A DNA stretch of 64,000 nt, taken from positions 888,001 through 952,000 of the forward strand of contig NZ_CP074436.1 in the NCBI RefSeq assembly GCF_016858305.2. The letters run 5' to 3'. Position numbers and translations under genes: made by a program. The notes below the pieces were generated by a model, which worked only from the letters and a program-made list of their open reading frames with translations, had not been told where the DNA came from and made no database searches. Numbering within the stretch: position 1 is the stretch's first letter; each line of letters starts with the position of its first letter. This DNA is from Polaribacter sp. Q13. Its GTDB lineage: Bacteria; Bacteroidota; Bacteroidia; Flavobacteriales; Flavobacteriaceae. Shown here one piece after another: positions 44,703 through 58,251 of this stretch.

Positions 44703-46034
44703 TTAAAGTTTGATATCGTTTCCTTGATAGAATTGTAATAATTGATGGTATAAAATATTTAAGTATTTAGATTGTAAATAGTTTTGTTGTGCGTTGGTGT
44801 ACCTATTTTGACTGATCACTAAATCCGTAGTACTTAAAGCACCTAATTCGTATTTTTTTTGTGCCAATTTATAAGATTGTTCCGACGCTGTTTTAGAAGC
44901 TTCGGCTGCAATTACTTGCTCTTGTGCAGACAATGCATTTTGATACGCCGTTTCTACTTTTCTATACACTTCTTTTTCTGTAGATAACTTTTGTATTTCT
45001 GCTTTTTCTATGTTGATGCTTGCCGTTTGTACCGCCGATTTTGTTTGATTTCTATTAAAAATTGGAATGGTTAAAGACAAACCTAATTTCTGATTGAAAT
45101 TCAAATCTACCTGATCTGAAAACGTATTATCATTAATACTTGTATATCCAGAACCTAAACTACCTGACAAAGCCAATGTTGGTAAAAAACCTCCTTTTGC
45201 AATGTCTAATTGTTTTTTATTTGCTTCTATATTTAAGTTGCTCGATTGTATTTCTGGTAAAATTCCCAATGCTTTTTCATACACATCAGCCTTGTTCAAT
45301 TCTAGATTTACTAAATCCATATTTTCATCGATGGTTTCAATTTCTATATCTTCGATTGGAGATAACTCTAATAATTGTTTTAAAGCAATAATGTATTGTT
45401 GATAGTTGTTTTTAGCAGCAATAACATTGTATTTGTTGGTTGCCGCCTGACTTTGAGCTTCCGTATAATCGCTTAATGCAATGTTTCCTGCATCTAAACG
45501 AGACTTTGCTCTTATAACTTCTGTTTCTGAAGCTGCCAAGTTGTTTTCTGCAATAACAATACTTTCTTTGCTATACAATGTTTGCAAATACGTTTCTAAA
45601 ATATTTAAAACGATGTTGTTTTGTGCTACTTCTTCTTCAAATACACTTTGGTTGAATAAAATTTTACTTTGTGCTATTTGATTGGTTATTTGATTTCCTT
45701 GAAACAAAGTCATAGAACTATTAATCCCTACGTTTGTACTGTGTATTTGGTCTGTTACAAAATCACTTGTAATAGGATCTATCGTATTTCCGCTAGAAAA
45801 ATTTTGAGATGCACTTCCAAATAAATTTGGTAATCGAGACGATTTTGCTTTGTTATAATCTATTTCGGCAATGTTTTTAGTCAGTACCGCATTTTTAACC
45901 GTAATGTTATTTTCTAAAGCATAATCGATACAGTCTTGCAAAGACCAAACTTTAGATGCGGAACTTGTAGTTACTTCTTGTGCAAAAGAAAGCTGCGCAA
46001 ATAGTAAACCAAGAATGATGATATATAGTTTCAT
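44703..46034 (-). CDS. TolC-family outer membrane efflux protein
   Basis: 443 residues with signal MKLYIIILGLLFAQLSFAQ. Two TolC repeats of long alpha-helices alternate with barrel strands: VWSLQDCIDYALENNITVKNA (first OEP motif), LGLSLTIPIFNRNQTKSAVQTA and AQKKYELGALSTTDLVISQNRY (second repeat). It is the outer membrane exit duct for the MacAB pump and the first gene of the operon, followed by macA after 11 bp. The promoter probably lies in the 328 bp upstream. Confidence 0.93.
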   Translation of the reverse strand: MKLYIIILGLLFAQLSFAQEVTTSSASKVWSLQDCIDYALENNITVKNAVLTKNIAEIDYNKAKSSRLPNLFGSASQNFSSGNTIDPITSDFVTDQIHSTNVGINSSMTLFQGNQITNQIAQSKILFNQSVFEEEVAQNNIVLNILETYLQTLYSKESIVIAENNLAASETEVIRAKSRLDAGNIALSDYTEAQSQAATNKYNVIAAKNNYQQYIIALKQLLELSPIEDIEIETIDENMDLVNLELNKADVYEKALGILPEIQSSNLNIEANKKQLDIAKGGFLPTLALSGSLGSGYTSINDNTFSDQVDLNFNQKLGLSLTIPIFNRNQTKSAVQTASINIEKAEIQKLSTEKEVYRKVETAYQNALSAQEQVIAAEASKTASEQSYKLAQKKYELGALSTTDLVISQNRYTNAQQNYLQSKYLNILYHQLLQFYQGNDIKL

Positions 46035-46224: not shown

Positions 46225-46253
46225 ACCCTTCAGGTTTTTAAAACCTGAAGGGT
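46225..46253. terminator. strong palindromic terminator
   Basis: ACCCTTCAGGTTT (46225-46237) pairs with AAACCTGAAGGGT (46241-46253), 13 perfect pairs, with CTTTTT following on the plus strand. It lies 110 bp beyond the S8 protease stop and within the 328-bp upstream region of tolC. It separates the IetAS-like pair from the efflux operon. Confidence 0.75.
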
Positions 46254-46362
46254 CTTTTTAAGACGTAATGAAATTGATGATGAATAACATTTGACTTTAT
46301 GGAAGAAAGTATTTTAAGATAGAATTTTTAGTTTAGTGACATATTTACGTAAAATTTCTTGT

Positions 46363-48822
46363 TTAATTATCAATAGGTATTGATACTAAAATTTGATTTA
46401 AAACATCGTTATATATATCAATTTCAGCTTCATTGGTTTCGATAGAAATAATTAAACTATATCTAACCGATGAATCATAACGTTTGAGTTTTTTTCTGTT
46501 TTTCCACCATCCTCCGACTGGATAAACCGCAATATTATTTCTCAATGCTAAATCTGCAGCTGAACCAATCCAGAGATCCTTATGTATACTACCTTTATCT
46601 CTAACTTGACTTCCCAATATCCAATCCTCTCGACCTTCAGCTACATAATCACCCTGTTCTTCTTTTATAGACTTACTAACACGAGATTTAAAAGCTTTCT
46701 GACTTTCATTCTTATCAATCATTTTGAACCTTAATCCATGTGATTTATATGATTGATCGTTAGCATATCTTTTATTTCCAGGGTTTGGTTCAATAAAATA
46801 TGATAAGGTAACTATTAATTTCACTTCTAATTCAGCTAAATCAGACAAAATATCCGTTGGCCATGGTAAATCAAACAAATGAAAAATATTTGTTTTAACT
46901 ATATTTTTATCATATTTAAAAGGTTGCAATGTTCTTTCTGCAATAATGTTTAAAGAATTTTCAGCACTATATTTAGCTTTGTTTAAGTTTGGTATTCCAT
47001 AACCCACTCTCGCTAAAAGTTTAGATTTTTCTTCTGAGGACAAACTTTCTATTTTTTTATTATTTAACATTATATCATTCCATGAAGCAGAATGAATAAT
47101 TAAAGCACGAATTGTTTCAGGTAAATAACTTGGATATTTTTGATATAATTTAGAGGCAAATTTTGATGCTAATGCTACTGATGCGCTTGTATCTGAAAAA
47201 GTAGTTAATACAGAACTTCCTATTCCAACTGTTCCTGTCGATAAAAGTTTTAAAGAATCGTGATCTAAAATCCCTGAATTGAAAATCCCATCATTACCTC
47301 CTTCAAATACAACATCGGGCTTTTTAGGCCATTTTTTATTCCAATTTATTGAAGTAGAATTACATGGAGACATTTGACCTTTTTTAGCTAATAATTCCGC
47401 ACTTGGAAATTGCTGTGTGTCTAATCTATCTTTATTAGTAAAAGATCCTACTGTGATAGCATTAAAAGATTGTGCAGGATCTTGTACCGAAAAATCATCA
47501 TTAGATAATGGATATATTAATCTATCATTCAAAGGTAAATTTCCTCCTGATATTAAAACCAAAGTTTCATCATTCCTATTATCTATAGAACCAAACAACT
47601 TTTGATCAATAGCAGCAGACCAAGAAGAAGGTCTCCCTAAATATTGATGATCTGGAGCTGTAATAGCTAGGCAAACAACTCTTTTATTATCTGGATTCAT
47701 AATTTCTGCAATAGCTATAGCTTCAAGAGTTATTTGCCCATATAATTCCGGATCGTTCGCTAAACAATCAATAATTTTAATACTTTCTATATTATTGGAA
47801 ACATTTATTTGCGAATTAGAAGTTAATGGATCGTTCAAATCTCCATATATAATAAGACCAGCCATAGGAGTCCCGTGTCCTTGCCTATAAGAATCGGAAT
47901 TTGTCCAATTTGGATTTACTGAGTCTAAATTTCTTTCTGGAATTAAATCTACTAATAATGGATTAATTCTATTAACACCTGAATCTAAAAGACAAACTGA
48001 GACGTTATTTTGTTCTATTTGGTTATTAATTCTACTACGTAAATCACTTACAAAATCACCATCCCAATCTTTATCAAGATTTGTGAAGAAGTCTGCAGTT
48101 TCAATTGGTTTTCTGATTTCTGCTAAATTATCTACATAAAGTAAACTTTCTCCTAGTTCTTCAGGAGTAGCTTTAATTAAGCCTACTATATTTTCCGGAA
48201 AAACAAGTAATCTGTTATTTGTTAAAATAGTATCCGTGGATAATGTATTTAAAGTTTCTTCTACAACTTCTTTATTAAATCCACTAAACCAAACTTCCCA
48301 CCATACACTTACATCTGAGCTTGGGAAATCTATTTCAGGTTCTTGCCAAAAACTTTCTAGAGTTGCTGCTCTAATATTTTCTATATTAGCTATTAAATTT
48401 TGGTTTTTGGGCTTTTCTGTTATAGTTTCCTCTGTTAAGTATTTTTCAACTTTATTCAAAAAATTAGAAACAGCTTTCTTATTTAAATAAACCGCAATTT
48501 TATATACTATTTGCTCATTACCATCAGCATCTGTAAAGAATTTCGCTTTGCAAGAGGCAAGTCTATAGTTTCCTTTTGCATCTTCAAAACTATCGAAAGC
48601 TAGTTCAAAATTTAATGCAGATTCAAATTCGATATAAACAAATTCATATTCTTCATTTCCACCTGTAAAATCAGTTACTGCAGAGTTGAAAGAATTTTTT
48701 AGTTTTAAACCGTGTCTACTTCTATCTCTATCATCTTTAAAAAGAAAACTTCCACCACCATAAGTACTATATGGTAATGAAGAATTATTTCCATTAAGAA
48801 AAATGTGATTTAAGTCAGACAT
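46363..48822 (-). CDS. ietS: subtilisin-like S8 protease (IetS-like)
   Basis: 819 residues. The first ~260 residues form an accessory N-domain without a signal peptide, so the protein is probably cytoplasmic. The S8 domain has catalytic Asp280 (LLDSG), His316 (QGHGTPMAG), oxyanion Asn428 (ISGGN) and Ser546 (SDTSASVA), a complete tetrad, though the usual GTSxAxP is replaced by DTSASVA. The last ~170 residues form a beta-rich C-domain. Cytoplasmic subtilases paired with an AAA ATPase define IetAS. The start codon lies 6 bp after the ATPase stop, so the two are translationally linked. Its target is unknown. Confidence 0.78.
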   Translation of the reverse strand: MSDLNHIFLNGNNSSLPYSTYGGGSFLFKDDRDRSRHGLKLKNSFNSAVTDFTGGNEEYEFVYIEFESALNFELAFDSFEDAKGNYRLASCKAKFFTDADGNEQIVYKIAVYLNKKAVSNFLNKVEKYLTEETITEKPKNQNLIANIENIRAATLESFWQEPEIDFPSSDVSVWWEVWFSGFNKEVVEETLNTLSTDTILTNNRLLVFPENIVGLIKATPEELGESLLYVDNLAEIRKPIETADFFTNLDKDWDGDFVSDLRSRINNQIEQNNVSVCLLDSGVNRINPLLVDLIPERNLDSVNPNWTNSDSYRQGHGTPMAGLIIYGDLNDPLTSNSQINVSNNIESIKIIDCLANDPELYGQITLEAIAIAEIMNPDNKRVVCLAITAPDHQYLGRPSSWSAAIDQKLFGSIDNRNDETLVLISGGNLPLNDRLIYPLSNDDFSVQDPAQSFNAITVGSFTNKDRLDTQQFPSAELLAKKGQMSPCNSTSINWNKKWPKKPDVVFEGGNDGIFNSGILDHDSLKLLSTGTVGIGSSVLTTFSDTSASVALASKFASKLYQKYPSYLPETIRALIIHSASWNDIMLNNKKIESLSSEEKSKLLARVGYGIPNLNKAKYSAENSLNIIAERTLQPFKYDKNIVKTNIFHLFDLPWPTDILSDLAELEVKLIVTLSYFIEPNPGNKRYANDQSYKSHGLRFKMIDKNESQKAFKSRVSKSIKEEQGDYVAEGREDWILGSQVRDKGSIHKDLWIGSAADLALRNNIAVYPVGGWWKNRKKLKRYDSSVRYSLIISIETNEAEIDIYNDVLNQILVSIPIDN

Positions 48823-48828
48823 ATTTTG

Positions 48829-49806
48829 TTAGAAAGGTCTTTTTCTTGAATTAATAGTTTCAGTTATAAATTCTAAATTGGACGTTTCCTTACCATAGAC
48901 AATAATGTTTTTAAAAAAATCTTGACAAATTTTTTCTAAATCAGAAAAATTTAATCCTATAGATTTTTTAGAAAGTTCTATTAAAGCATTATCAGCTATT
49001 AATTCACTTTTTAAAAGTTCTCTTTTGTAATATTTAAATATTTGTTCTTCTGTAGGTATAGGATAATTTATAATATCATCGAATCTTCTAAATAATGCTT
49101 CATCTAAATTCTCAGGTATATTTGTAGCTGCAATTATTAAACTATTTGAATCATCTTTTTCTATTTGAAGTAAAAAACTATTAAGAACTCTTTTTATTTC
49201 TCCAACTTCATTTCCTTGACTTCTCGTTGTACCAATACTATCAAATTCATCAAATAAATAAACAGCTCTAAATTCTTTCATTGTATCAAAAACCAAACGT
49301 AATTTAGCTATTGATTCTCCCATATATCTACTGATTAAACCATCTAACCTTATTACAAATAGTGGAATACCTAATTCATTAGAAATTACTCTAGCTGTCA
49401 TTGTTTTTCCACAACCAGGAGGGCCCGTTAATAATATTTTTTTTCTAGGAAATAAATTATGCTGTCTTAATTTTTCTATTTGTCTTTGTTCATCTAAAAT
49501 TCTTTGAAGAGATTTTTTTAGATTAGTAGATAAGACCATGTCTTTCAATTTATCATCAGGTCTTGAAAACTCTAATAAATCATTAAGTTCTTTTTGTGCT
49601 GCATTGACAGGCAATCTTTTTAAAGTTCTTTCATTAATTTTTGATTTTTTAGAATCTTGAATTAATTTCTTCAACTCTTCGGCTAGTTCTTGACGTCCCT
49701 TACGGGCTTCTGCTGCAGCTATTTGCATAGCAGTAGCATAGAAGCGAGAATCATCTCCTTCACTGAATGATCTAATCAAACTTTTTATTTGTTCAGCTGC
49801 TGCCAT
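48829..49806 (-). CDS. ietA: AAA+ ATPase (IetA-like)
   Basis: 325 residues. N-terminal helices (1-100) precede the AAA core: Walker A GPPGCGKT (128-135), pore-type loop YMGES (161-165), Walker B YLFDE (183-187), sensor-1 Asn229 (AATN) and Arg240-Arg241 as finger candidates. C-terminal lid: about 255-320. It resembles FtsH/katanin-like single AAA modules that unfold or remodel proteins, and might present substrates to or restrain the adjacent protease. Gene order (ATPase then protease) and near-contact match IetAS. No clear TAnnTTTG element was found upstream. Confidence 0.8.
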   Translation of the reverse strand: MAAAEQIKSLIRSFSEGDDSRFYATAMQIAAAEARKGRQELAEELKKLIQDSKKSKINERTLKRLPVNAAQKELNDLLEFSRPDDKLKDMVLSTNLKKSLQRILDEQRQIEKLRQHNLFPRKKILLTGPPGCGKTMTARVISNELGIPLFVIRLDGLISRYMGESIAKLRLVFDTMKEFRAVYLFDEFDSIGTTRSQGNEVGEIKRVLNSFLLQIEKDDSNSLIIAATNIPENLDEALFRRFDDIINYPIPTEEQIFKYYKRELLKSELIADNALIELSKKSIGLNFSDLEKICQDFFKNIIVYGKETSNLEFITETINSRKRPF

Positions 49807-49923
49807 TTATGTTAATGTATTTTGATGTAAAAATATACAAAAAAAATGATAACTATATAAATTATGGTTAGCTATATTATCGTTTTAATTAAATCTAAAT
49901 TTTTAACATTTACCCAGAATTAC

Positions 49924-50700
49924 CTATACCCCATCCAAATACCCCTTCCCAATATCAAATATTTTTTCAGAATCTTTATTATCCAAACCTGAATACTCAG
50001 ACAACGGAAAACTAACGGTCATTTTAGTAGTTGCAAACTTATGGCTTTCTGCGGCATGCGATTTTAAGTATGTAGCATGTGTAATTACTTTAAAAGTAGA
50101 ATTTAATTGTAAATGCGTTTTTGGAGCAGGTTCAGCTACATAACTTCCTATAATTGGCAATCCTGATTTTAGAAAAGGTTTAATCGGAAAATTATCTAAA
50201 ATTCCGCCATCGGAATACAAGGTTTTATTGATGATAATAGGCGTAAAAATACCAGGAATCGCGCAAGAAGCCAATACAGGTTTTAATAACTTCCCTTTGC
50301 TAAAATAACGAGGTTTGCCACTTTGCATGTTAGAGGCAGTAATGTAAATTGGAATTTCTAAATCTCTGAATTTATCTTTTATTTTATTTTCTATAATCGA
50401 TTTGAATAAAAAAGTATCAAAAATTCCTGCTTTTGTCATGCTAAAGAAGGAGAATTTAAAAAGACTCGTTCTTTTAAAGATTTCTAAAATTTCTTGAGTA
50501 GAAATACCAGAAGCATATAATGAAGCTACCAAAGCGCCTCCACTACTCCCGGAAATTGCATTTATTTGCAAGCCTAACTCTTCTATTTTCTCTATCAAAG
50601 CTAAATGTGCAGCACATTTAATACCACCTCCAGATAATACTAAATTTATAGGAATGTTTACATTTAGTTTAGAAAGTTGTTCACTGTAATTTATAAGCAT
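49924..50700 (-). CDS. patatin-like phospholipase
   Basis: 258 residues. Oxyanion loop VLSGGGIKCAAHLAL, nucleophile elbow GSSGG (Ser53) and the Asp in YSDGGILDNFP complete the Ser-Asp dyad; no signal peptide. It would hydrolyse membrane lipids on the cytoplasmic side. It lies 117 bp upstream (in transcription sense) of the IetAS-like pair on the same strand. Patatins also act as effectors of abortive defence systems, but no cyclic-nucleotide synthase or sensor is near. A housekeeping lipase is the simpler reading. Confidence 0.87.
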   Translation of the reverse strand: MLINYSEQLSKLNVNIPINLVLSGGGIKCAAHLALIEKIEELGLQINAISGSSGGALVASLYASGISTQEILEIFKRTSLFKFSFFSMTKAGIFDTFLFKSIIENKIKDKFRDLEIPIYITASNMQSGKPRYFSKGKLLKPVLASCAIPGIFTPIIINKTLYSDGGILDNFPIKPFLKSGLPIIGSYVAEPAPKTHLQLNSTFKVITHATYLKSHAAESHKFATTKMTVSFPLSEYSGLDNKDSEKIFDIGKGYLDGV

Positions 50701-54721: not shown

Positions 54722-55111
54722 TTACACTTCTCTACTTTTCCAAACATTCAAATACTGACCTGTTGCCATTCTTCTAGATGCATCTTTGGCTCTTTGTGCT
54801 AATTCACCAACATATAAAGAATCAATTGTTTGAAACCAAATCTGTAACCATTGTCCAAAATGTTCCTGACTCATGGTATGCTTTAAATGTTTATCTACTT
54901 TTAAATGTGCTTTTGTAGGATTTCCTTTAAAACAAACATCACCCAATAAAGCTGTTACCCAGAAATCGGTTAGTTTCTCTAAATGTGGAGGCCATTGTTC
55001 TGCTTTTAAATGATGATTAAATATAGGACCTAATAAAGCATCGTTTCTAACTTCATTATAAAAAGTAATGACCAATAGATTTATATCTGCTCTGTTTTCT
55101 ATTTCTTTCAT
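54722..55111 (-). CDS. group III truncated hemoglobin
   Basis: 129 residues, the length of TrHbIII/TrHb. Landmarks: LVITFYNEVRNDALLGPIFNHHL (B/C/E helices with Phe at B10-like position), FWVTALLGDVCFKGNPTKAHLKV and HFGQWLQIWFQTIDSLY, where a His in the ahead segments serves as proximal ligand. Such globins bind NO and O2 and help detoxify NO. The gene sits between the NO reductase and the porin. Confidence 0.88.
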   Translation of the reverse strand: MKEIENRADINLLVITFYNEVRNDALLGPIFNHHLKAEQWPPHLEKLTDFWVTALLGDVCFKGNPTKAHLKVDKHLKHTMSQEHFGQWLQIWFQTIDSLYVGELAQRAKDASRRMATGQYLNVWKSREV

Positions 55112-55125
55112 TTTATAAAAAATTA

Positions 55126-55160
55126 AATCAGCACAAACCTATGAAAGGCCTATGCTGATT
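55126..55160 (-). terminator. hairpin between norB and the globin gene
   Basis: AATCAGCA (55126-55133) pairs with TGCTGATT (55153-55160); a T-rich stretch follows on the minus strand before the globin ATG at 55111. It is probably an attenuating or processing hairpin. Confidence 0.6.
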
Positions 55161-55177
55161 GTATATACATTTAAAAA

Positions 55178-57397
55178 TTAATTTTTCTTTTTGATACAAT
55201 AAATGGTTTCTTGTATGGTAAACCAACAAAAATAGAATATACCTACAGAGAAAATTACGTCACCAATCATACGCATCCATTTTAAGGTTTGTACTGTTGG
55301 AGAATATAGTAATTCTGCATCTCTTGCAAAAGAGTATCCTTTTGTAATTGACGTGTAGGCTTGTATAATTCCTACAGGCAGCATGCTTAAAAAGACCATA
55401 GCTACTAAACCAATGTTTAAAAACCAAAAAGCTCTTTTTAATTTTACAGAACTCCATTCTCTGTCTGAATAAAAACGCAAACAGATAATAATGAATCCCA
55501 TACCTAATAAACCATACACACCAAACAACGCAGTATGTGCATGCACTGCCGTAGTATTTAAACCTTGAATATAATACAACGCAATTGGTGGGTTAATTAA
55601 GAAACCGAATACACCTGCTCCTACCATGTTCCAAAATGCCACGGCAATAAAGAAAAATATAGGCCATTTGTATTTCTGAATCCATTCGTTCGATTTTAAA
55701 AGATTCCAATTTTCACGAATTTCAAATCCCATTAAGGTTAATGGCACTACTTCTAAAGCACTAAATGTTGCTCCTAATGCGATTGCTTGTACAGGTGTTC
55801 CAGAATAGTATAAATGGTGTAAAGTTCCAATAATTCCTCCTGCTAAAAATATGGTTGCAGAAGCAATAGACGCTTTTCCTGCTGTTTTTGCTGATAAAAT
55901 TTTCATTCTTAAAAAGATAAAAGCAATAACTACGGTTGCAAAAACTTCAAAGAAACCTTCTACCCAAAGGTGCACTAGCCACCATCTCCAATAGTTAATT
56001 ACGGGTAAACTACTGTTTTCTCCATACATTAATCCTGAGAAGAAAAACATTCCAATCGCAATAACAGAAATCAATAATATGATTAATAAATGTTTAGAAT
56101 CATCATTTTTTCTAATCGCATAGATGATGTGTCTACCAACCATAAACACCCATAACACCAATCCGATTCCTAAGAAAATTTGCCAGAACCTACCTAAATC
56201 CATGTACTCATATCCTTGATGTCCAAAGAAGAAATTAGTTGTTAAATCTAAAAACTGGTGTACACCCAACCATTCTCCCATCATAGAACCCAATACAATT
56301 ACTATTAGTGCTATAAATAGAAAATTGGTACCAAATATTTGATATTTCATTTCTTTGCCGCTAATCATTGGTGCTAAGAATAATCCTGTTGCCAACCAAG
56401 TAGCAGCAATCCAAAATACAGCCAATTGTGTGTGCCATGTTCTGGTAATAGAATATGGAAGAATACTAGATAAATTGATACCAAAAAAATCTTGTCCCTC
56501 TACGGTATAATGCACTGTTAGAGCACCTAAAACTACCTGTAATGCTATTAATAAAGAAATAACAATAAAGTATTTTAATACAGCTTTTTGAGATTTTGTA
56601 AGAATTAAAGTATCTAAAGGATCTTTATCTGGATGAATGACTGCTTCACCTTTTTCGTGATTACGGATATAATAATACCCTAATCCTCCAATAAATAATA
56701 ATAGAAGTACAATTGAAAACCCTGACCAAACTTGAGAATCTGGAGTAATTGTATTATCAATTAATGGCTCATGTGGCCAGTTAGAAGTATATGTATAATC
56801 CTTTTCTGGTCTGTTAGTACTTGCTGCCCAAGAAGTCCAGAATAAAAAAGCATTTAACTGTGCTAGTTTTTCGGTATCTACCAATGCACCTTCAGGAATA
56901 GCGTATTTTTCATACCCATTAGAAAAAATATCTGTGTAATGCTTTTGATTTTCTAGAATAGCGGTATATCTATCTTTAGAAATAGTAATACTACCCGTTT
57001 CTGCATTATACGTATTTGTTTTAATATGCTGAATTAATCGTGCTTTTAAGGCTGCTTTATTTTCTACATCTAAGTTTTCATAGGTTGAATTAAAATCTTT
57101 TTTAGCCCAGGCATTAAGCATAAAAACAGCTTCTTTATGTATCCAGTCTGCAGACCAATCTGGTGCTACATAACTACCATGCCCCCAAATAGAACCTACT
57201 TCCATTCCTCCAATAGACTCCCAAACATTCTGACCTATTTGTATGTCTGCCTTGGTTAAATAGACTTCTCCTGTTTCCTGTATTATAACGGTTTCTGGTA
57301 TAGGTGGTTGTGTTTGATAAACTTCTGTTCCCACCCAAATAAGTACTAAAAAGGATAGTGTTACCACACTAGTAAATGCAATCCAAACTTTTTTCAT
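55178..57397 (-). CDS. norB: quinol-dependent nitric oxide reductase (qNOR)
   Basis: 739 residues. The N-terminal TM helix and a ~210-residue periplasmic domain (HGSYVAPDWSADWIHKEAV) distinguish the single-subunit qNOR type from cNOR. Heme/FeB ligands appear in RTWHTQLAVFWIAATW, WVEGFFEV (preceded by HLW), HHLYYSGTP and VHAHTALFGVYG; 14 TM helices are expected. It reduces 2 NO to N2O using quinol at the inner membrane. No norC or nitrite reductase is present, so the role is detoxification rather than full denitrification. It begins 20 bp after the cupin gene. Confidence 0.95.
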   Translation of the reverse strand: MKKVWIAFTSVVTLSFLVLIWVGTEVYQTQPPIPETVIIQETGEVYLTKADIQIGQNVWESIGGMEVGSIWGHGSYVAPDWSADWIHKEAVFMLNAWAKKDFNSTYENLDVENKAALKARLIQHIKTNTYNAETGSITISKDRYTAILENQKHYTDIFSNGYEKYAIPEGALVDTEKLAQLNAFLFWTSWAASTNRPEKDYTYTSNWPHEPLIDNTITPDSQVWSGFSIVLLLLFIGGLGYYYIRNHEKGEAVIHPDKDPLDTLILTKSQKAVLKYFIVISLLIALQVVLGALTVHYTVEGQDFFGINLSSILPYSITRTWHTQLAVFWIAATWLATGLFLAPMISGKEMKYQIFGTNFLFIALIVIVLGSMMGEWLGVHQFLDLTTNFFFGHQGYEYMDLGRFWQIFLGIGLVLWVFMVGRHIIYAIRKNDDSKHLLIILLISVIAIGMFFFSGLMYGENSSLPVINYWRWWLVHLWVEGFFEVFATVVIAFIFLRMKILSAKTAGKASIASATIFLAGGIIGTLHHLYYSGTPVQAIALGATFSALEVVPLTLMGFEIRENWNLLKSNEWIQKYKWPIFFFIAVAFWNMVGAGVFGFLINPPIALYYIQGLNTTAVHAHTALFGVYGLLGMGFIIICLRFYSDREWSSVKLKRAFWFLNIGLVAMVFLSMLPVGIIQAYTSITKGYSFARDAELLYSPTVQTLKWMRMIGDVIFSVGIFYFCWFTIQETIYCIKKKN

Positions 57398-57417
57398 GTT
57401 GTTGTTTTTTTAATAAA

Positions 57418-57753
57418 TTATACTACGTCTTTTACTCTTTGTACACTGTCTGCCACAGAAACCGTAAGTCTTATGATACAATTTTCTGTACAGTATAAAT
57501 CGTGTGGAACATTTGCGTCTAACGCAATTAAATCTCCTTTTTTTAATGCTTGTTTTTCTCCTTCTACTCCAAAATCTATCGCTCCTTCAAATAATTCTAT
57601 CACAATAGGAAACGGTGCTTTGTGCTCTTTCATTTGTTGTCCTTTTTTCATAAGGATTCTTATCTCTTTTGTAGTTGCGGTTTTTATTAATACGGTTATT
57701 GCAGGTTTGTCTTCTCCGTAGATTAAGTTTTCTGTGATAGATACTGTTTTCAT
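57418..57753 (-). CDS. small cupin protein of the NO cluster
   Basis: 111 residues, a single beta-barrel cupin: [42 protein letters not shown], read as the two cupin motifs with HDLY. Metal-binding His residues are few, so it may be a sensor or a small-molecule binder. It is the first gene after the NsrR-like regulator and directly precedes the NO reductase. Its role in NO stress is unknown. Confidence 0.75.
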
Positions 57754-57784
57754 TATTTTTGGTTTTGATTATCTTATAAATTAG

Positions 57785-57806
57785 TAAAAGATCTTAATAT
57801 CTTTTA
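57785..57806 (-). promoter_or_regulatory. candidate NsrR operator upstream of the cupin-norB operon
   Basis: A perfect 8-bp inverted repeat, TAAAAGAT-N6-ATCTTTTA, lies between the NsrR-like gene and the cupin gene, 32-53 bp upstream of the cupin ATG, where a repressor would block a -7-like TAATTTAT (57783-57776). Confidence 0.6.
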
Positions 57807-57819
57807 TATGGTTAAATTT

Positions 57820-58251
57820 TTAGCGCTTTAATATGAAGCCTCCTAATGACATATCATCTATGATGGATTTTATAGAAGTATTTTCTAACATATTTTTTAG
57901 ACTCTCACGGATATCAACAAATTTAAAATGCAACGGACAAGGAGATGTTGCGTCACATTGTTTTAGTCCTACCCCACAACCTTTGTAAATAGCATCACCG
58001 TCTAAAATACTTACAATTTCACTTAATTTAGTATCCATCTTCTCCTCCTCTATGGTAAAACCTCCATAAGGTCCTTTTAAAGATTTAACAATATTATTTC
58101 TTTTAAGTTGTTGTAAAATTTTGGCCGTAAAAGCTTGTGGTGAGTTTATTTCTTGAGATATAGTATTCATACTTACTTTATAACCATTCGCACTTTCTTG
58201 TGCTATAAATAGCACTGCTCTTAATCCGTATTCGCAAGTTTTAGAAAACAT
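57820..58251 (-). CDS. nsrR: Rrf2-family NO-sensing regulator, NsrR-like
   Basis: 143 residues. The winged HTH (about 5-65) includes GLRAVLFIAQ and AKILQQLKRNNIVKSLKGPYGGF. Three cysteines, Cys92, Cys99 and Cys105, form C-X6-C-X5-C in the loop (YKGCGVGLKQC; TSPCPLHF), the [Fe-S] site of NsrR/IscR relatives. Destruction of the cluster by NO would release DNA. It heads the NO cluster. Its start is fixed by the promoter 23 bp upstream. An IscR role is less likely, given NO reductase next door. Confidence 0.85.
   Translation of the reverse strand: MFSKTCEYGLRAVLFIAQESANGYKVSMNTISQEINSPQAFTAKILQQLKRNNIVKSLKGPYGGFTIEEEKMDTKLSEIVSILDGDAIYKGCGVGLKQCDATSPCPLHFKFVDIRESLKNMLENTSIKSIIDDMSLGGFILKR

Follow-up and report, generated by a model that had tools for sequence, protein, structure and literature searches.

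A chromosomal IetA–IetS pair of the Ti-plasmid clade at what is most likely a cassette-swapping locus, with a probable role in abortive infection

IetAS, a pair formed by an AAA ATPase and a subtilase, appears in many defence surveys, and the IetA–IetS pair is said, in work attributed to Yamamoto in 2009, to stabilise pTiC58 of Agrobacterium. In the accessible parts of the published reports, the tested function of such pairs is that of a toxin–antitoxin system, with the subtilase as toxin and the ATPase as antidote (PMC5006074, PMC8562856). When the subtilase of SGI1 was induced alone, transformation fell 100- to 1000-fold and toxicity was apparent in <30 minutes; the ATPase counteracted this toxicity in E. 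coli, and the sgiAT pair stabilised SGI1 (PMC5006074). In mycoplasma, deletion of the ATPase alone was lethal and deletion of the protease or of both genes was viable (earlier work cited in PMC8562856), and the AAA/subtilase pair was confirmed as a toxin–antitoxin system (PMC8562856). The link between IetAS and phage resistance given in the available text of PMC11878078 is only statistical, and no lysogens were obtained of a phage carrying IetAS; the mechanism was presented as not yet described in 2023 (PMC9958689) and as unknown in 2025 (PMC11878078), again in the portions available. No phage test for the Ti-plasmid-type IetS clade was found in the literature that could be consulted.

The window, meaning the whole stretch of 64,000 nucleotides analysed here (G000:C1:888001-952000, from a one-contig genome of 4.42 Mb), contains a pair of minus-strand genes separated by 6 bp, with the AAA ATPase gene upstream of the subtilase gene. 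The features of the pair are the following, the IetA motifs being placed by an alignment of 14 IetA sequences and the IetS active-site residues being invariant in alignments of 13 and 44 IetS sequences:

48829..49806, minus strand: ietA, single-domain AAA ATPase, 325 aa (PADLOC IetA, Pfam AAA, alignment)
49402..49425, minus strand: IetA Walker A, GPPGCGKT, residues 128-135 (K134)
49318..49326, minus strand: IetA pore-loop-1-like Y161-M162-G163
49246..49251, minus strand: IetA Walker B acidic pair D186-E187
49120..49122, minus strand: IetA sensor-1 Asn229
49084..49089, minus strand: IetA arginine pair R240-R241
46363..48822, minus strand: ietS, predicted cytoplasmic subtilase (S8), 819 aa (PADLOC IetS, Pfam Peptidase_S8, alignments)
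48049..48822, minus strand: IetS N-terminal domain, residues 1-258, ferredoxin-like in the model, for which no sequence family was found
47983..47985, minus strand: IetS catalytic Asp280
47875..47877, minus strand: IetS catalytic His316
47539..47541, minus strand: IetS oxyanion Asn428
47185..47187, minus strand: IetS nucleophile Ser546, in the DTSA box

A first-pass annotation of this DNA had described two genes 6 bp apart, for an AAA ATPase and an 819-aa subtilase with four active-site residues, and the ORFs, the alignments and the Pfam matches (AAA PF00004, 7.6e-31, for IetA; Peptidase_S8 PF00082, 5.5e-49, for IetS) agreed with it. The HMM check against PADLOC that it had proposed also supported its naming of the pair as IetAS: model PDLC04232 (IetA) matched the ATPase with 3.5e-74 over residues 1-321 of 325, and model PDLC02198 (IetS) matched the S8 protease with 2.4e-29 over residues 271-773, the N-terminal domain lying outside this best stretch, where the assignment means model matches plus adjacency on the same strand and not PADLOC's rule files or coverage limits. 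The same identity is supported by the homology of the whole IetS to the pTi-type protein and by the gene order at related loci described below. The window's IetS gave one match in its own genome and, among 7993 candidates scored, 1301 database proteins with E<=0.001, so the match was not due to chance; the 119 others among the best 120 homologues listed showed 51-87% identity across almost the full length.

In the IetS alignments, in both of which the window's sequence was counted, the active-site set D280, H316, N428 and S546 was complete, from which protease activity is predicted. The serine box, which had been regarded as unusual, turned out to be a family feature, as D544, T545 and S546 were invariant in 44/44 sequences and T545 and S546 in 13/13; the corresponding box of the pTi-type IetS is ETSA. 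K134, D186-E187, N229 and R240-R241 were invariant in all 14 IetA, the window's included, confirming the Walker A and B motifs, sensor Asn and Arg pair noted before and predicting ATPase activity. Position 161 was Y or F and M162 and G163 were invariant in the same set; Y161-M162-G163 is what we take to be pore loop 1. Inspection by eye of the IetS N-terminus (MSDLNHIFLNGNNSS...) revealed nothing like a signal peptide, as stated in the earlier reading. The product of ietA is annotated as a probable antitoxin/regulator and that of ietS as a probable toxin/effector.

Pairing of the two genes was strict at the loci read. The ietA gene lay directly upstream of ietS on the same strand in 9/9 readable chromosomal loci (L002, L003, L005, L006 and L012-L016; L004, cut by a contig end, is not counted), and directly upstream in 9/9 plasmid stretches (L051-L059, from annotation, nine of the 486 matching records) and in 5/5 viral-contig loci examined by tblastn (L060-L064, a count that leaves out L065), that is, in 23/23 readable related loci plus the window. 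Matches to IetS were found in 486 of 72,556 plasmid records, 379 of them covering at least 80% of the query, and in 2 of 50,697 phage records. Within the family the gene is rare and patchy, with matches in 6 of 299 genomes when the window's own is counted. A TraG-type conjugation gene started 1.5-3.3 kb past ietS in three of the nine readable chromosomal loci (L013-L015), L013 also having an integrase; by eye, the genes on either side of the pair resembled housekeeping genes in the window, as they did at the loci from Olleya, Wenyingzhuangia and Formosa. A NERD-domain (nuclease-related) protein is encoded after ietS and ahead of the conjugation genes in one locus (L015:10495-12201). The ietS of a Rhodococcus plasmid, adjoining an ietA, is annotated as two overlapping ORFs (L055:2911-5473) and is apparently a broken copy, followed after 2.8 kb by a CRISPR-associated RAMP gene.

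In a tree of 25 IetS, the window's protein fell within a 15-row clade (support 100/100) together with pTi-type and viral-contig sequences, whereas the rows closest to the NCBIfam IteS model fell outside it. As several outer rows were long-branched and the inner forks of the clade were partly open, only clade membership is used here. The window's proteins matched the NCBIfam models below their cut-offs, with 188.5 bits against 510 for IteA (NF042959, E 2e-55) and 35.8 bits against 900 for IteS (NF042956, E 2.9e-9). The pTi-type pair also failed, with 198.6 bits for IteA and no IteS row at E<=1e-20; by PADLOC the two IetS scored about equally (89.7 bits for the pTi-type, 99.8 for the window's), and the pairs were likewise similar. 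Therefore, phage-protection data obtained for the NCBIfam branch are not simply transferable to the window's pair. Of 296 genomes from the phylum, 13 matched IteS at E<=1e-20 and none scored above its cut-off, nor did any control genome. G607, a genome from the family to which the window's organism belongs, encodes an IteS-like subtilase (L066) that scored 388 bits over NF042956 positions 2-745, so the other IetS branch is also present in these bacteria.

The surroundings of the pair were compared with those of genus relatives, with the following features in the window:

44703..46034, minus strand: left flank gene, TolC-like outer membrane efflux protein, conserved (PF02321, relatives)
46316..49927, no strand: exchanged segment, the pair with short non-coding ends, without match in G334
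49924..50700, minus strand: right flank gene, patatin-like phospholipase, conserved (PF01734, relatives)

With G334 as reference, the ends flanking the pair measured 47 and 121 bp. The segment held the pair alone; integrase, relaxase and replicon genes were not seen in it. The patatin gene was found at E<=1e-100 in 10 of 166 genus genomes searched, own included, and all nine others were read. Six of these keep tolC and patatin on opposite sides of the slot; G407, G355 and G395 were left out of the count because the stretch examined there gave no match to tolC. Among the six, a different cassette was present in two (G334 and G337) and no gene was found in four.

In G334 the flanks were 96-97% identical to those of the window and a 2.7 kb cassette replaced the pair, in which PADLOC identified a UG39 reverse transcriptase (8.7e-100) and an RTasVirE-PriCT2 partner, PrimPol-like (1.7e-106), of the DRT group. 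Of the 541 positions of the UG39 model, the reverse transcriptase ORF (L037:7537-8616) covered 216-537 and no others, so the beginning of the protein is either absent or in another frame. The slot of G337, about 6 kb long, contained in a row (L039:5369-10885) a methylase of the Dcm type, a GHKL ATPase of 966 aa that carries a HEF_HK domain, and a Response_reg_2 (receiver-domain) protein of 527 aa; the PADLOC search gave no telling match for the latter two, and the cassette is a candidate conflict system. Next to it the 3' end of the patatin gene recurs as a repeat of 83 bases with 77% identity, which suggests recombination at the end of this gene. The remaining slots spanned about 560-790 bp, between DNA matches in G331 and G335, with no listed ORF of at least 50 aa, and between ORFs in G362 and G389, with no listed ORF of at least 80 aa. 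Cassettes thus occupied three of seven slots, the window included, and all three were unrelated, in small numbers; PADLOC assigns two of the cassettes to defence systems; the third resembles R-M and has no system name there. The slot is most likely a small cassette-swapping locus. In each of two gene-less slots (L038:9641-10275 and L040:5236-5810), a non-coding repeat of roughly 150 bases is visible by eye in two copies; a search run without positive control did not find this repeat in the own genome. An inverted repeat between tolC and the pair (window 46225-46255), terminator-like by eye, is kept in the G334 flank.

The explanation that we consider probable is that the pair is a chromosomal IetAS of the Ti-plasmid clade acting as a toxin–antitoxin type of abortive-infection defence. 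By analogy with the homologues, for which toxicity and rescue were shown, unrestrained IetS would harm the cell from the cytoplasm, and IetA, the product of the gene immediately ahead of ietS in the same orientation, would keep it harmless. A phage or other invader might then disturb IetA or its ATP cycle, and the freed IetS could cut a host or phage protein, so that infection would end together with the cell. For the window's copy we infer its toxicity, the phage as trigger, the cut target, the manner in which IetA holds IetS and the antiphage role itself. This reading is supported by the PADLOC matches, the intact motifs, the strict pairing, the patchiness, the slot refilled in two of six relatives, once with a cassette of DRT-group UG39, and the toxin–antitoxin tests published for SGI1 sgiAT and the mycoplasma pair, as far as their reports are accessible (PMC5006074, PMC8562856). 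The swapping of unrelated cassettes at the same slot is new, indirect support for defence. Against it stand the scores below the NCBIfam anti-phage cut-offs, the four relatives' slots in which no gene was found, the small number of swapped cassettes (two), the housekeeping-like flanks by eye in the window, Olleya, Wenyingzhuangia and Formosa, and, in the available text of PMC11878078, a link with resistance that is statistical only and the missing lysogens of the carrier phage. Of the earlier proposals, that of an ATPase restraining the protease agrees with the published tests of homologues, again as far as accessible (PMC5006074, PMC8562856), and that of an antiphage role gains from the cassette swapping and loses from the cut-offs and the Ti-plasmid clade.

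The main rival is that the pair was purely an addiction module, a toxin–antitoxin system that retained a DNA segment or mobile element, had no antiphage role and stayed behind on the chromosome once its carrier had decayed. The tested relatives do stabilise pTiC58 and SGI1 (for SGI1, accessible part of PMC5006074), and both the plasmid matches and the TraG-type genes close to the pair in three of nine chromosomal loci fit such an origin. However, the exchanged segment contains nothing else to stabilise, with neither integrase, relaxase nor replicon genes seen in it, and the same slot holds a DRT-type cassette in one relative; pure addiction is thus disfavoured, and we regard it as unlikely although it ranks first among the rivals.

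An ATP-dependent quality-control protease, in which IetA would unfold proteins and feed them to IetS like ClpXP or FtsH, would suit the AAA motifs and the pore-loop-like aromatic-Met-Gly kept by IetA, and also its relatedness, as the nearest NCBIfam models after IteA include CDC48, CdvC, PAN and FtsH and the best PDB rows are CDC48/p97. The occurrence in only six of 299 family genomes, the toxicity of a homologous subtilase without its ATPase (PMC5006074, accessible part) and the sharing of the slot with other cassettes make it improbable. That these are ordinary cytoplasmic protein-degradation genes with no part in conflict would agree with the housekeeping flanks, but given the pairing, the patchiness and the swapping at the slot it is most improbable.

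The N-terminal domain of IetS comprises about 260 aa. It is conserved within the 15-row clade and is included in the homology of the whole protein to the pTi-type IetS (residues 4-815); it had been placed outside recognised families and proposed as a possible sensor, and no sequence family was found for it here either. Its modelled fold is ferredoxin-like, and a role as subtilisin propeptide, which would call for a beta-alpha-beta-beta-alpha-beta arrangement immediately ahead of the protease, is possible. The sequence evidence was negative: when 10 members were compared with Pfam at E<=5 with filters on, no Inhibitor_I9 row appeared, and hhalign gave this family a probability of 0.15 for residues 166-256, with column shuffles scoring higher. 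A speculative, rather doubtful extension is that residues ~171-248 form a diverged propeptide lying over the active site in cis, that IetA holds or remodels this brake through pore loops of threading type, and that a phage inactivating IetA would free the protease. If true, IetAS would be a zymogen-based abortive-infection system, and the tolC–patatin slot a miniature site of defence swapping in the genus.

Membership in IetAS is in itself ordinary, and the slot is the useful part: an intact pair of the Ti-plasmid clade, exchanged with a DRT-type cassette in near relatives, joins the toxin–antitoxin and defence readings of the family, and the relatives supply a natural gene-present, gene-swapped and gene-absent set for phage testing. 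Elsewhere in the window (54722-58251), genes for truncated-haemoglobin-like, NorB-like, cupin and Rrf2-type regulator proteins lie in a row by eye, an apparent nitric-oxide module.

Compared with known systems, the locus shares with the IetA–IetS of the Agrobacterium Ti plasmid the gene order and, with the L052 pTi-type pair, full-length homology (34% for the subtilase over residues 4-815 and 41% for the ATPase, in the same 15-row clade, 100/100), but it is chromosomal and from another phylum, and the comparison was made with L052. The sgiA–sgiT pair of SGI1, in the accessible description (PMC5006074), likewise joins an AAA antitoxin to a subtilase toxin, a likeness by description, but sits on an integrative mobilisable island. 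The AAA-ATPase/subtilisin-like TA132/3 of Mycoplasma, as described in the available part of PMC8562856, is the same type of pair in a distant host, likened by description. The NCBIfam 'anti-phage' IteA/IteS (NF042959/NF042956) are also of this type, but the window's pair is far below both cut-offs and its IetS lies outside the best-matching tree rows. Finally, the other slot cassettes, UG39 RT with VirE/PriCT2 and Dcm with HEF_HK and Response_reg_2, occupy the same slot with proteins unrelated to IetAS.
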